A stretch of 53,308 nucleotides of DNA from the NCBI GenBank assembly GCA_021160245.1, contig JAGHCW010000226.1:1-53308 (forward strand), read 5' to 3'. Both the position numbers and the translations under genes were made by a program. This DNA is from a bacterium. GTDB lineage: Bacteria; B130-G9. Below the pieces are notes generated by a model. That model made no database searches and was not told the DNA's origin. It saw only the letters and a program-made list of their open reading frames with translations. Of the stretch, positions 43,628-48,212 are shown in pieces (position 1 is the stretch's first letter; each line of letters begins with the position of its first letter).

Positions 43628-45901
43628 TTATCTAACTACTCGCGCCTCGCGCATTGGTCTGAAATGCCTCTCGACGGGACTCGGCAATCCGGCGCCAACC
43701 GGGCCGTGCGCCGTCCATTTGCCATTCGTGTCGATGTCAACCAGCCAATACTGGTATCTGACGCCAGGCCTGACATTGCTGTCAACGAACCTGTATGAGG
43801 CGCCAGCACCTGGGGCGCCCTGCGCGCCAATCAACCTGCTGATGGCCTTTCGCTCCTTACCATCGAAACGATAGATAACGAAACCGGAATTATCGACTTC
43901 CGCGCCCGTCTCCCAAGTCAGCACGATCTTGCCTGCTCTGGCGTGCGCCTCGAAGCTCGAGAGCCTGATGTATGTGTTCAGCTCGCCAATGATGCGAGTG
44001 TGGGGGCAGCCGTAGAGGTTGTAAACGAAGTAGTTATGCCAAGCGGCAGAGCTGCTGTGGTAGGTGCTGAGGTAGTAGTTTGCCTCATAGAATGCCCTTG
44101 CACAGGCGCCGTTTGCGCTGGAATAATCGGTCAGGTTGCGGGCATACCAATAGCCTATGTCCTGGGAGCCGCCCCAGCGACGGGTATATGTGAAGTTGCC
44201 AGAGTAACCCAGCGAGCTGTTCGACGCGCTAGAAGTATTCACCGCGCCCTTCTTCAGCAGAGCATAGCCCAGGTTGTTTGCATCTGATGGCCAGCCATTT
44301 TGGCAGCTGATCTGGAATGTGAACGCCGGATGCGTGTCATCCAGATTCGAGCAATAACTTGTCTTGAATAGGTAGCCCTCGGAGCAGGCTGCTGGGCTGC
44401 CATGTCCTACTACTGCAACAGAATGGTTGCCATGGCCAAACCAAAAGACCAAGCCATAAGCGTGCGCCGCCCACCTGTCCACAACGCTGCCCGCGGCGCT
44501 GATGCCGCCGTGAAGCACTTCGTCCCAAGCATAGTCGCTACGGCAGTTATCATGAGCGTTCTGATACATCTTGTAGGTTGTGAAGTTGCGGGTGCTCAAG
44601 TACTGGTTGATCATGTCACGCGCATAGTAGGACGGGTCAGTGCTCGTCCACGGGAAAGAGAGCGGAAACAGAACCGAGAGGCGCCAGTCGAGATCGCCGT
44701 GCTCCGTGTCGTAGTTGATCTCTTTTTGGATGATGTTGTCCAGATTCGTGTAATCTGTGCCATATACCGGTATGCGAGCCGGATAGATCTCTGGGTCGAG
44801 ATCGGCGTTGTCCTGCCCATACTCACCGAAATACTGGTCTCCGTCGGAATCCCAATCGCCGGTCAAGTCGGCGAAGTAGTAATCGGTCGGAACGGTCAGG
44901 CCGTAACCTGGATACGTATTCTTCATCGGGACATAGGAGTGGCCCGGATCGGGATCACCGATGAACAGAACGTAAACCACACCATAATTCTGGTAGTAGT
45001 CAATGAGCCACTTTCTCATCTTGTCAGCGACGCCATCGGGAGCCTGGCCAGTCTTTGTGCCATAGCCGCCCGCGGTGTCCCCATCCTCGTAACTGTGGCT
45101 TTCCGTGACTGTTAGCACGATATGCCCGACATTCTGAAGATGTGTATTGAGGTTGGCTAGCTCCGTGCTGCCGTTCTTGATCGCCTCTGTCGTCATAATG
45201 ACATAGTCGTAGGAGTCGCCCATCGGTCGGAAGCCATTAGTGAGCTTATACCACTCCCTAGCTTCTCGATAGTTGACGAATCTTGTAGCGGCCTTGTCGT
45301 CGAAGACCATGTCGTTCAGCGATGCCTTGTCAAGCAAATCAGAATCCCGCTCAAACTCGATCCTCAGACGCACGCCATCGCGGAACAGAAGTTGCCGGCT
45401 GATTGGATTGTAGCTGAATGGCGCGTATGCTATTCGGACATACTTCCACTTGCGCATCTGTCCCGTGCCATTCGACTTAATGGTGTCCTCGGGCAGAAAC
45501 TCGTCCGATGAGTAAACGTCAACGTCTTTCCCATCCATAACGTTCGTTGCGCCTTGCCAGTCCTCGGTGAACTCACCGTCGGGGCCAGGAACCATAAGAG
45601 GCGGATGAGGCGCGATATCGAACTGCCCGGGCAGAGCGCTCTCGCCTCTTTCGAGCTCTTCAATCGATATCGAGTCCCACACCACATCAGGCGGCAGGGC
45701 AACGTGATAGACGTTAATTGGCAGCATTGGAGACCCGGGCGTTCCCGCCAGACCGTAGCCGTCCATTTCAATGATCTCACCGTTTTCGACATCCACGATC
45801 TCATACTCAGAGGCCGTGAACTCGACGATAATCTCGTCGGCGAATCCTGCTCCGGTAAGGGCCAGAATCGCCACGATTCCCAAATAAATGCTAGTTCTCA
45901 C
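43628..45901 (-). CDS. secreted gingipain-like cysteine protease (peptidase C25)
   Basis: 757 residues from GTG 45901 (GAGGG 7 nt upstream); the open frame extends to 45967 without an RBS. The signal peptide is VRTSIYLGIVAILALTGAGFA. A pro-region of about 200 residues (YGLAGTPGSPMLPINVYHV) is followed by the C25 domain: YDYVIMTTEAIKNG, VLFIGDPDPGHSYVPM, catalytic His490 in WFGHGNHS and Cys533 in QISCQNGWPS. The C-terminus has a fibronectin-like module (KIVLTWETGAEVDNSGFVIY, LVDIDTNGKWTAHGPV) homologous to that of the neighbouring C1 protease, probably for sorting or attachment. It lies 90 bp after a gene for a 39-residue peptide and is probably expressed with it. Confidence 0.93.
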   Translation of the reverse strand: MRTSIYLGIVAILALTGAGFADEIIVEFTASEYEIVDVENGEIIEMDGYGLAGTPGSPMLPINVYHVALPPDVVWDSISIEELERGESALPGQFDIAPHPPLMVPGPDGEFTEDWQGATNVMDGKDVDVYSSDEFLPEDTIKSNGTGQMRKWKYVRIAYAPFSYNPISRQLLFRDGVRLRIEFERDSDLLDKASLNDMVFDDKAATRFVNYREAREWYKLTNGFRPMGDSYDYVIMTTEAIKNGSTELANLNTHLQNVGHIVLTVTESHSYEDGDTAGGYGTKTGQAPDGVADKMRKWLIDYYQNYGVVYVLFIGDPDPGHSYVPMKNTYPGYGLTVPTDYYFADLTGDWDSDGDQYFGEYGQDNADLDPEIYPARIPVYGTDYTNLDNIIQKEINYDTEHGDLDWRLSVLFPLSFPWTSTDPSYYARDMINQYLSTRNFTTYKMYQNAHDNCRSDYAWDEVLHGGISAAGSVVDRWAAHAYGLVFWFGHGNHSVAVVGHGSPAACSEGYLFKTSYCSNLDDTHPAFTFQISCQNGWPSDANNLGYALLKKGAVNTSSASNSSLGYSGNFTYTRRWGGSQDIGYWYARNLTDYSSANGACARAFYEANYYLSTYHSSSAAWHNYFVYNLYGCPHTRIIGELNTYIRLSSFEAHARAGKIVLTWETGAEVDNSGFVIYRFDGKERKAISRLIGAQGAPGAGASYRFVDSNVRPGVRYQYWLVDIDTNGKWTAHGPVGAGLPSPVERHFRPMREARVVR

Positions 45902-45991
45902 CTTGCTTCCCTCTCTTTGTTTGGTCAATATCAACGAGATAACGCATTTCGGCTCGTGATTCGACAAGCTAGCCAGGCGCGATTAGTCGCC

Positions 45992-46111
45992 CTAGCAGCC
46001 GCTTGAGGAGCCGCCGAAGCCCGTGCAGGACAGCGAGGGTCCCAGCGCAGAGAGGATGCTCTTCGAATCCAATGTGATAACTCTAGGCGCCTCGTAAGTC
46101 TTTGTAGCCAT
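45992..46111 (-). CDS. 39-residue RiPP-precursor-like peptide, copy 1
   Basis: ATG 46111 has AAGGAG 5 nt upstream, the best RBS in the region. The peptide has a leader-like N-terminal half with TYEAPRVITLDS, then ILSALGPS, and a C-terminal core SCTGFGGSSSGC with Cys29 and Cys39. The YxxP-x-V part resembles the leader motif that binds RRE/PqqD-like domains in lasso and radical-SAM peptides; the core is Gly/Ser/Cys-rich like a modified peptide. There is no signal peptide. Copy 2 (47894-48013) differs only at residue 2 (Ala versus Thr). It is followed after 90 bp by the C25 protease. I do not know a named family for it; function inferred only. Confidence 0.85.
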   Translation of the reverse strand: MATKTYEAPRVITLDSKSILSALGPSLSCTGFGGSSSGC

Positions 46112-46277
46112 TGCCACTCCTTCTAAATAGTTGGTTCAGGGCTTTTGCCCAAAAACAAAACGAATTGCATCTCGGGAGAGTTAAGCAGCTCGGGAAGGTC
46201 ATGAACCCCACTGGCCCCATAGGGCTAATTAAGATTCAGCACTTTCCTCTAGCTCCCGAAAGTTCTCCCGCATAAGT
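46112..46277 (-). promoter_or_regulatory. structured 5' leader of the peptide-C25 cassette
   Basis: The untranslated leader upstream of peptide copy 1 is closely similar to the one at 48014-48183. Shared parts include AAAGTGCTGAATC, AGCCCTATGGGGCCAGTGG, CTTAACTCTCCCGAGATG and CCTGAACCAAC. Visible stems are GCCC-TATG-GGGC, CGGGAGA with distant TCTCCCG, and GGGC-AAAA-GCCC shortly before the RBS. Such conservation between flanking copies outside the coding part suggests a regulatory RNA. I recognise no known riboswitch class. Confidence 0.6.
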
Positions 46278-46306
46278 AACATGATGCATATTCCAGCAAA
46301 TGTCAA
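46278..46306 (-). promoter_or_regulatory. promoter of cassette 1
   Basis: TTGACA (complement of 46301-46306), 17-nt spacer, CATGTT (complement of 46278-46283). The -35 and its flank (GTACTTGACAT) are identical in cassette 2. Confidence 0.55.
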
Positions 46307-46431
46307 GTACGTGGAGTTTCCAGAAGATGGAAATGGGCGAATCCCGCTTCGTATGCCCTTTCTCAAAAATCAGCTGAATAGGAGAATATCCAATTCAGTA
46401 GCTCTGGCCGGATTAGTCCAAATGCGCCGCG

Positions 46432-46472
46432 GGTAAAAAAAGAAACGAGTCGCGATCGATGACAGCGCCCCG
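46432..46472 (-). terminator. degenerate terminator of the C1 protease cassette
   Basis: On the minus strand GGGGCGCT, a loop GTCATCGAT and CGCGACTC, then GTTTCTTTTTTTA. The loop, right arm and T-tract match the terminator at 43552-43593, but the left arm has mismatches. An outer CCGCGG/CCGCGG pairing may stabilise it. It lies about 50 bp after the C1 gene. Confidence 0.55.
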
Positions 46473-46524
46473 CGGATGTTCGGTTAGTTCTTTCCTTACT
46501 AAACGCTTGCCAAGCTATCAGCAG

Positions 46525-47802
46525 CTACCTCATCGCAACCACGCCAGCATTCACAGGTCTCAAGTTAAGCCTCTCGAACTCAACTCTCGCACACGCTGGT
46601 CCGTGAGCCGCCCACTTGCCGGCGGTATCGACATCCACCAAGTAGTAGCAGTAGGTTACTCCGGGGGAGGCGTCTTCGTCCACAAACGTGTATGAGTCGC
46701 CGGAGCCCGGCGTACCCTCGGCCTGGATGAAGCCGCTCACCATCTCGTAGCTCTGACCGCTATCGGCGGTTCTGTAGATAACGAAGCCAGCGTTGTCTAT
46801 CTCTGCGCCGGTCTCCCAGGCCAGGATGATATCTGAGCCTTGTGCTTCAGCGTCAAATGAGTTGAGGTCGATGTAGGTCAGAGTATCGCCGGGCTCGATC
46901 TCTAGAGTCCATGTGCCGAACTTGACGCATGTCTGTCCCCATCTGATTCTGAAGTAGCCGCTTTCGGCCCAACCTGCCCCCCAGGAGTTCTTCACTATCC
47001 AATACTTTTCGTCGTCGTCCCAACCGACGATAACGACAGCATGGCCACCCAGGTAATCACCGTATGCGTACTCATAAATCCCACCATCGTAGTAGTAGTA
47101 GAAATCTTCGTACACATCGAGATGTGTGGCGACGGGGTATTGATGGACAGCCTGCTTTATGAGGTTCACGTCCTCGCTTGTGGTGGTGACCCAACTCCAA
47201 GATTCTATCTTCTGCGCCCTTGAGGACCAGTCCGAACACGTATCAGCACAAGGAAGATCCGAGGCCGCGTATGGGAAGCAATCCTCATCAGGACTGCCCG
47301 CAGCGATGTAATACGAAAGAGCAAGGTAAGTGTAACCACCGCTGCAGCTGCCGGCGCCCGAACAAGACAGGATGTGTTGCTCCGAAAGATTGTAGTCGCA
47401 ACCCTCCCTGTTGTGCTTTATTATGGTGCCAGATTCAACGGCTGCGGTTGCCGCGAAATCCCAACAGCTCCCGCAGCTGCCCTGGCTCCTTACAGGGGTC
47501 ACCCAGTTTCCTCCGTTGTCCCTCCAATCGAAGTGAGCAGGAAGGTCCATTGGGCGGTATCCACCCTGGTTCAGGTTTGGTCCGATCGCCGATTCGTCGG
47601 GTTCCAGGTCTCCGCACACCACTTCGCCCGGCAAGTCGACCATCGGGCTCATATTGGCCGTCCAGGGATTGCCCATCTCCTCAAGCTTTGCTCTGACCTT
47701 AGCCAGGTCTTCCTCAGACGCTTCACCAAACACAATGGTGCTGGCAAAGCTAGTCACGGCAATAGTCAATATCACTAGTCGTAACAATGCAAATCGGTTC
47801 AA
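46525..47802 (-). CDS. secreted papain-like cysteine protease (peptidase C1)
   Basis: 425 residues from TTG 47802, with GGGAGG 8 nt upstream. A signal peptide (LLRLVILTIAVTSFAS) and a short pro-region (about 30-85) precede the papain domain: FDWRDNGGNWVTPVRSQGSCGSCWDFA with Gln107 and Cys113, then GGHAVVIVGWDDD with His254, then VKNSWGAGW with Asn272. The catalytic set is complete. From about 310 a fibronectin-like module (DIILAWETGAEIDNAGFVIY; LVDVDTAGKWAAHGPA) matches the C-terminus of the C25 protease next door. It is preceded at 91 bp by peptide copy 2. Confidence 0.95.
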   Translation of the reverse strand: MNRFALLRLVILTIAVTSFASTIVFGEASEEDLAKVRAKLEEMGNPWTANMSPMVDLPGEVVCGDLEPDESAIGPNLNQGGYRPMDLPAHFDWRDNGGNWVTPVRSQGSCGSCWDFAATAAVESGTIIKHNREGCDYNLSEQHILSCSGAGSCSGGYTYLALSYYIAAGSPDEDCFPYAASDLPCADTCSDWSSRAQKIESWSWVTTTSEDVNLIKQAVHQYPVATHLDVYEDFYYYYDGGIYEYAYGDYLGGHAVVIVGWDDDEKYWIVKNSWGAGWAESGYFRIRWGQTCVKFGTWTLEIEPGDTLTYIDLNSFDAEAQGSDIILAWETGAEIDNAGFVIYRTADSGQSYEMVSGFIQAEGTPGSGDSYTFVDEDASPGVTYCYYLVDVDTAGKWAAHGPACARVEFERLNLRPVNAGVVAMR

Positions 47803-47893
47803 TTACTTGTCCTCCCTCTGATATTCACACTTCCATAGATAACGCTTGGCGAATTTGGTCTAGAGAGAAACGCCATAGGCCTCCACCAATACG

Positions 47894-48013
47894 CTAGCAG
47901 CCGCTTGAGGAGCCGCCGAAGCCCGTGCAGGAGAGCGAGGGTCCCAGCGCAGAGAGGATGCTCTTCGAATCCAATGTGATAACTCTAGGCGCCTCGTAAG
48001 TCTTTGTAGTCAT
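47894..48013 (-). CDS. 39-residue RiPP-precursor-like peptide, copy 2
   Basis: It starts at ATG 48013 with AAGGAG 5 nt upstream, and ends TGC TAG at 47894-47899. The sequence is the same as copy 1 apart from residue 2 (Thr), including leader segment TYEAPRVITLDS, ALGPS hinge and the SCTGFGGSSSGC core. Nucleotide identity is also very high (one synonymous CTG/CTC change near the core plus the residue-2 change), so the duplication is recent or kept uniform by gene conversion, although the proteases that follow are of different families. It lies 91 bp before the C1 protease. Confidence 0.85.
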   Translation of the reverse strand: MTTKTYEAPRVITLDSKSILSALGPSLSCTGFGGSSSGC

Positions 48014-48183
48014 TGCCACTCCTTCTAAATGGTTGGTTCAGGGCCCAAATGCCCTTAATGCAAAACGACTCACATCTCGGGAGAGTTAAGTTAGTCAGGA
48101 AGGGTATGAACACCACTGGCCCCATAGGGCTGAATGGGATTCAGCACTTTCCCTCAAACACAATAACTATCCTTCACCGATAA
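48014..48183 (-). promoter_or_regulatory. structured 5' leader of the peptide-C1 cassette
   Basis: Paralogue of the leader at 46112-46277 (see shared blocks there). Changes between copies often keep pairing: TGAAT-CCC-ATTCA is a perfect hairpin here, and the pre-RBS stem GGGC/GCCC persists with a different loop. The CGGGAGA partner of the long-range stem is absent in this copy. Confidence 0.6.
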
Positions 48184-48212
48184 CTATGATACATTCATAT
48201 ATGGATGTCAAG
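48184..48212 (-). promoter_or_regulatory. promoter of cassette 2
   Basis: TTGACA (complement of 48207-48212) within GTACTTGACAT, the same flank as in cassette 1. TATCAT and CATAGT are -10 candidates at 15- and 18-nt spacing. The metG gene is divergent from here. Confidence 0.5.

Follow-up and report, generated by a model that had tools for sequence, protein, structure and literature searches.

Two peptide-protease units and their leaders

The window analysed here, a contig of 53,308 nt (JAGHCW010000226.1 of assembly GCA_021160245.1, GTDB lineage Bacteria; B130-G9), carries two units on the minus strand, referred to as the 46-kb and 48-kb units. Both have the same order from 5' to 3': a TTGACA promoter, a leader of about 165-170 nt, the Shine-Dalgarno sequence AGAAGGAG, a gene for a 39-aa peptide and a gene for a secreted protease. 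The features are as follows.

46-kb unit
46278-46306, minus strand: promoter, TTGACA (46306-46301), 17 nt, CATGTT (46283-46278), from sequence and spacing
46112-46279, minus strand: leader RNA copy 1, from sequence and alignment with copy 2 and foreign leaders
46193-46247, minus strand: predicted inner hairpin of copy 1 with mismatched inner pairs (MFE and centroid; arms against shuffled arms, p = 0.0023)
46139-46150, minus strand: GGGC/GCCC mini-hairpin of copy 1, at -39
45992-46111, minus strand: 39-aa peptide gene, MATKTYEAPRVITLDSKSILSALGPSLSCTGFGGSSSGC
43628-45967, minus strand: secreted C25-like protein (Propeptide_C25 match only) with a C-terminal VDIDT..HGPV domain

48-kb unit
48183-48211, minus strand: promoter, TTGACA, 17 nt, CATAGT, from a consensus scan
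48014-48183, minus strand: leader RNA copy 2, from sequence and alignment with copy 1 and foreign leaders
48097-48154, minus strand: predicted inner hairpin of copy 2 with mismatched inner pairs (MFE; arms against shuffled arms, p = 0.020)
48041-48054, minus strand: GGGC/GCCC mini-hairpin of copy 2, at -41
47894-48013, minus strand: 39-aa peptide gene, MTTKTYEAPRVITLDSKSILSALGPSLSCTGFGGSSSGC
46525-47802, minus strand: secreted papain-family (C1) protease with a C-terminal VDVDT..HGPA domain

A first-pass annotation of this DNA had described two paralogous, untranslated leaders with long identical blocks, and this description holds. Both leaders are present where it placed them, on the minus strand; they agree at 126 of 167 aligned positions, and the flanks further up- and downstream are unalike. 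As far as can be judged from the letters, neither leader is translated: in the shared ATGGGGCCAGTG frame, 8 of the 23 codons compared differ non-synonymously and 2 synonymously. The promoter of the 46-kb unit is absent from the output of the consensus scan. Since the promoter motif also precedes unrelated genes, it looks like an ordinary promoter, and its use as a regulon mark was rejected.

Related leaders in other genera

Four genomes of one phylum-level group (G000, G001, G002 and G003) were compared, the copies of the window genome included. These genomes contain 29 copies of the peptide gene, five of which, from three genera, carry a leader of this kind (class A). Three of them lie outside the window, one on a contig of G001 (C57) and two on a contig of G002 (C209), i.e., in two other genera of the same group. 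Each of the five leader-bearing peptide genes stands first behind a promoter and a leader that can be aligned to those of the window. The mini-hairpin starts at -39, -41, -41, -40 and -40 from the start codon in the five leaders, and the TTGACR box lies at -195, -198, -192, -186 and -195. In the other 24 peptide genes the mini-hairpin is absent from this position, two of them carrying such a pattern at -129 and -99, and the whole layout of inner hairpin, mini-hairpin and promoter spacing is lacking. GGGC/GCCC patterns occur in the window about as often as expected (6 against 5.4), and the point of note is the constant position, -39 to -41, in all five leaders.

Conservation between genomes is concentrated in the arms of the inner hairpin and in the mini-hairpin, where mean identity is 0.58, 0.55 and 0.63 compared with 0.33-0.46 in other stretches of the leader; the promoter forms a further peak. 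Leave-one-out nhmmer searches recovered each leader, with E-values of 2e-19 and 4.5e-19, for which the other window copy was in the training set, and of 2.4e-12, 1.1e-8 and 8.4e-10. A profile built from the three foreign leaders only listed copy 2 at E 0.23 and did not list copy 1, and a profile built from the window pair only did not find the foreign leaders. What ties the window leaders to the foreign ones is therefore the searches with mixed training sets, the pairwise z-scores (2.5 to 6.1) and the layout common to all five. Foreign and window leaders are identical at about two thirds of aligned letters.

Model R1 matched five places in the four genomes at E 2.4e-29 or better, all of them its own training leaders, and nothing else under E 0.4; in G003, which is 83% complete, it found no class A leader. 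Matches at E 0.42 (G001, contig C114) and E 0.96 (G000, contig C59) lie inside long reading frames, and two antisense matches (E 1.17 and 4.06) mirror the leaders; all four were set aside as noise. Outside the group, R1 gave one match (E 0.0055 over 84 nt) in one of 56 unrelated genomes, which we take to be due to chance and which shows that R1 E-values are rough. In the window's own genome, the other 11 of 13 DNA-search matches were short fragments without leader or peptide and were likewise discarded.

Known RNA families and control types

A search with 4227 Rfam families gave no gathering-level match in the window, and the leaders of G001, G002 and the window had no match even at E up to 10. 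The resemblance to fragments of cobalamin riboswitches that had been suggested earlier was not borne out: no leader matched a cobalamin model even with the E limit at 10, and the likeness is confined to a few short blocks seen by eye (GGGAA, CCAGTG), whereas the leaders precede peptide and protease genes, not cobalamin or transport genes. A structured leader of no known family (the first-pass annotation did not recognise its class) is supported by homologues at the same place in three genera, the lack of an Rfam match and more paired cells than in shuffled or slid alignments (see below). Transcription attenuation found no support, as the minus strand has no terminator-like site between 45950 and 48380, and leader-peptide control was rejected, with no ORF common to the five leaders and the codon changes in the ATGGGGCCAGTG frame mostly non-synonymous.

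Orphan structured leader motifs from comparative genomics (for example Genome Biol. 2010 11:R31) are likewise conserved, structured non-coding stretches with no known ligand; the leaders described here differ in being five copies only, from one small phylum-level group. A literature search found no paper joining a riboswitch and leader RNA with a RiPP precursor peptide.

Fold and covariation

The five leaders were aligned with MAFFT, and the consensus fold predicted by RNAalifold consists of a long irregular hairpin and the mini-hairpin. In this alignment, 79.9% of 184 cells were paired, compared with 71.9% in shuffled and at most 47.5% in slid alignments, and 16 of 37 pairs showed change on both sides, compared with 8.4 in shuffles and reached by none of 500, for a structure derived from the same alignment on which it was scored. 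For this reason, the structure was tested in other ways.

In an alignment-light test, the inner arms were compared with shuffled arms (p = 0.0023, 0.020, 0.0047, 0.28 and 0.055 in the five leaders), which combined to a Fisher p of 7.5e-4 with the window pair entered once at its worse p. The arms of the outer stem paired no better than shuffles (Fisher p = 0.17), non-cognate arms pairing equally well, and this stem (P1) is left unsupported. Out of sample, 58% of window cells (38 of 66) paired in the structure of the three foreign leaders, compared with a mean of 0.37 and a best value of 0.54 for slides. The window structure paired 60 of 111 cells in the foreign leaders; both figures exceed slides and shuffled partners. 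Pairs with a letter unseen in training were canonical in 10 of 29 cases and, in the reverse test, in 16 of 67, which is about chance. With each leader left out in turn, the figures were 11 of 14, 8 of 13, 15 of 18, 15 of 23 and 17 of 30. When a covariance model was trained on the three foreign leaders, copy 1 ranked first in 242 kb, but at only 14.1 bits (E 0.11), and copy 2 was missed. Fold z-scores of the five leaders were -2.70, -1.34, -2.95, 0.43 and -0.43, i.e., below -2 in two of five, and the last two belong to the G002 leaders, whose fold energies are thus ordinary. Taken together, the tests on arms, folds and covariation make the inner hairpin a likely predicted structure and leave the outer stem unproven; covariation out of sample is weak.

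Compensatory change between the two window copies, which the first-pass annotation had read from the letters, was not confirmed. Of the 51 pairs of the 46-kb structure, 38 are kept in the other copy, compared with a mean of 38.1 when the same substitutions are placed at random, and the MFE stands out no more than marginally (an MFE as low was reached in a fraction of 0.14 in one direction and 0.0085 in the other). Nor is the GGGC/GCCC stem a case of compensation: its letters are identical in both copies and the loop alone differs, being AAAA in one and ATTTGG in the other. The further copies in which covarying pairs were to be sought did turn out to be divergent, so that recent duplication fails to explain them, while the covariation itself transfers only weakly beyond the leaders from which it was derived.

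Possible role of the leader

The best explanation, to which we give an even chance of being right, is a lineage-specific structured 5' leader that may act in cis on the peptide-protease mRNA, with the hairpin as a putative binding site that would set translation or lifetime. Each unit would be transcribed from a sigma-70-like promoter into an mRNA with a leader of about 165 nt, followed by the 39-aa peptide and then the secreted protease. Close to the 5' end, an irregular hairpin would form whose letters are conserved and whose inner pairs are mismatched, around GAAAG..TGAA and TTCA..CCTTCC. The mini-hairpin would lie upstream of the Shine-Dalgarno sequence, some 15 to 20 nt away. A mismatched 5' hairpin with conserved letters and a mini-hairpin at fixed distance fit a cis-acting binding site, whose partner would most likely be a protein and less likely a small molecule; binding there would set the translation or lifetime of the message. 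The observations behind this explanation are the homology of the five leaders, their fixed spacing, the conserved inner hairpin and the lack of a Rfam match, a terminator and a conserved uORF. A cis-regulatory RNA for protease and peptide expression had been suggested earlier: the structured leader of no known family is supported, and the regulatory role, the step of action and what binds are what we infer.

Alternatively, the hairpin could be a passive 5' stabiliser that only shields the short peptide mRNA from degradation and has no sensing function. Its start near the predicted transcription start would suit such a role, as would the different 5' leaders (class B, below) at the heads of other operons in this gene family, as if any sturdy fold would do; however, the letters of the inner hairpin and mini-hairpin are conserved, at the identities given above, and not stability alone, and both G002 leaders fold with ordinary energies. 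We regard passive protection as possible but rather unlikely.

Still less probable, in our view, is that promoter and peptide cassettes were simply copied by duplication or gene conversion, with RNA structure playing no part. The window peptide genes are identical at 118 of 120 positions, which suggests recent homogenisation, and covariation at chance level out of sample would be expected of such copying, but the copies in other genera have kept blocks and spacing at about two thirds identity, and inner arms pair above chance across the set.

A translational switch, in which an anti-Shine-Dalgarno strand would pair either within the outer stem or with the ribosome binding site, appears very unlikely and is not supported, because the strong pairing of the outer 3' arm with the Shine-Dalgarno region in the G001 leader (-15.0 kcal/mol; with the 5' arm masked, Shine-Dalgarno pairing to the 3' arm rises to 0.80) and in G002 copy a (-13.2) is confined to two of five leaders (-6.4 in each window copy, -7.5 in G002 copy b), and the best pairing is not significantly above that of shuffled leaders in any of the five (p = 0.06 to 0.87).

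Should the cis-acting leader prove to regulate, it would add a new RNA element and offer a lead to the signal governing a peptide and secreted-protease system so far unstudied, in a candidate phylum with, to our knowledge, no cultured member. The leader is a short, testable RNA, and the peptides, together with the orphan maturase cassette described below, offer a second testable hypothesis.

Peptides and their secreted neighbours

Peptide profile A2 matched 29 places in the four genomes (5 in G000, 7 in G001, 15 in G002 and 2 in G003), defining a family of 37-41 aa with the pattern YEAPxVxTLxSxxIxSxLGPSLSCTGFGGSxxC and up to 15 copies per genome. The window peptides have no Pfam or NCBIfam match. 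Genome contigs of 84,980 species, each represented by one genome, yielded nine peptide loci when scanned, seven in the group and two doubtful ones outside it (L068 and L069), and a scan of viral contigs gave no relatives. By sequence, the peptides look like RiPP precursors: short ORFs that combine a conserved, leader-like part with an end bearing Cys, in genomes with a PqqD-domain maturase.

A gene with the VDIDT..HGPV-type C-terminal domain lies near 27 of the 29 peptide genes, within 450 nt upstream in 18 cases and only within 4.5 kb downstream in 9; the two without such a neighbour are truncated peptide frames. The two secreted proteins of the window and most peptide neighbours are of unlike kinds (C25, C1 and beta-helix) and share a C-terminal stretch ending in VDIDTxGxWTAHGPV, a stretch that Pfam scans left unnamed.

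A second leader class

Leaders of class B occur in four copies that are 76-90% identical to the query copy over about 190 nt, on contigs C132 and C22 of G001, C111 of G002 and C229 of G003. They lie at these loci:

L076, 12440-12590, minus strand: class B leader
L078, 8318-8515: class B leader
L082, 6465-6615, minus strand: class B leader
L124: class B leader

The copies on L076, L078 and L082 have no Rfam match, and the predicted fold of the class shows change on both sides in none of 25 pairs. Their motif order is GCGGAAGCGGGAGCGA..GCATCT..AGACGCAA..GTTCCCACCTC, and they stand in front of secreted-protein genes in the same kind of operon.

A PqqD/radical-SAM cassette

In all four genomes, one PqqD protein adjoins a PqqD-fused protein; the G000 copy of the latter has matches to radical SAM and SPASM models. 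In G000, G001 and G003 the pair is followed by a protein of 402-418 aa with a weak HprK-type model match and by one of 1075-1086 aa, which has a C25 match in G000 and G001 and, in G001, matches PorU models below cut-off. A signal-peptidase-like gene comes next in G000 and G001; in G002, the contig ends inside the gene after the PqqD pair. The cassette of PqqD, PqqD-fused radical SAM/SPASM, HprK-like, PorU-like C25 and signal-peptidase-like genes was located as follows:

L112, 512-7649, minus strand: cassette
L113, 1177-8267, minus strand: cassette
L114: cassette
L115: cassette

The cassette is regarded as a candidate trans-acting maturase. It shares a PqqD protein, a radical SAM/SPASM maturase and an HprK-related kinase with cassettes of the SynChlorMet and HPr-rel-A types, named after NCBIfam matches; unlike these, all NCBIfam matches here are below curated cut-offs, a C25 protein with a PorU-like match lies inside the cassette, and the contigs that carry it yielded no peptide gene. 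A literature search found no paper joining PqqD, radical SAM, PorU and a precursor peptide.

As a speculative and rather improbable extension, an RNA-controlled surface-protein system specific to this lineage may be considered. Numerous very small RiPP-like peptides, each encoded beside a secreted protein with the shared C-terminal domain, would be matured in trans by the PqqD/radical-SAM proteins, the PorU-like protease would join or process peptides with their neighbours, and dedicated, structured leader RNAs of at least two classes at the operon heads would sense the state of the system.

Genome G001 also carries a separate PqqD gene in a cluster of the lasso-peptide type (L106/L097, contig C54), which contains a transglutaminase-like gene, PqqD and, by eye, an asparagine-synthetase-like ORF.
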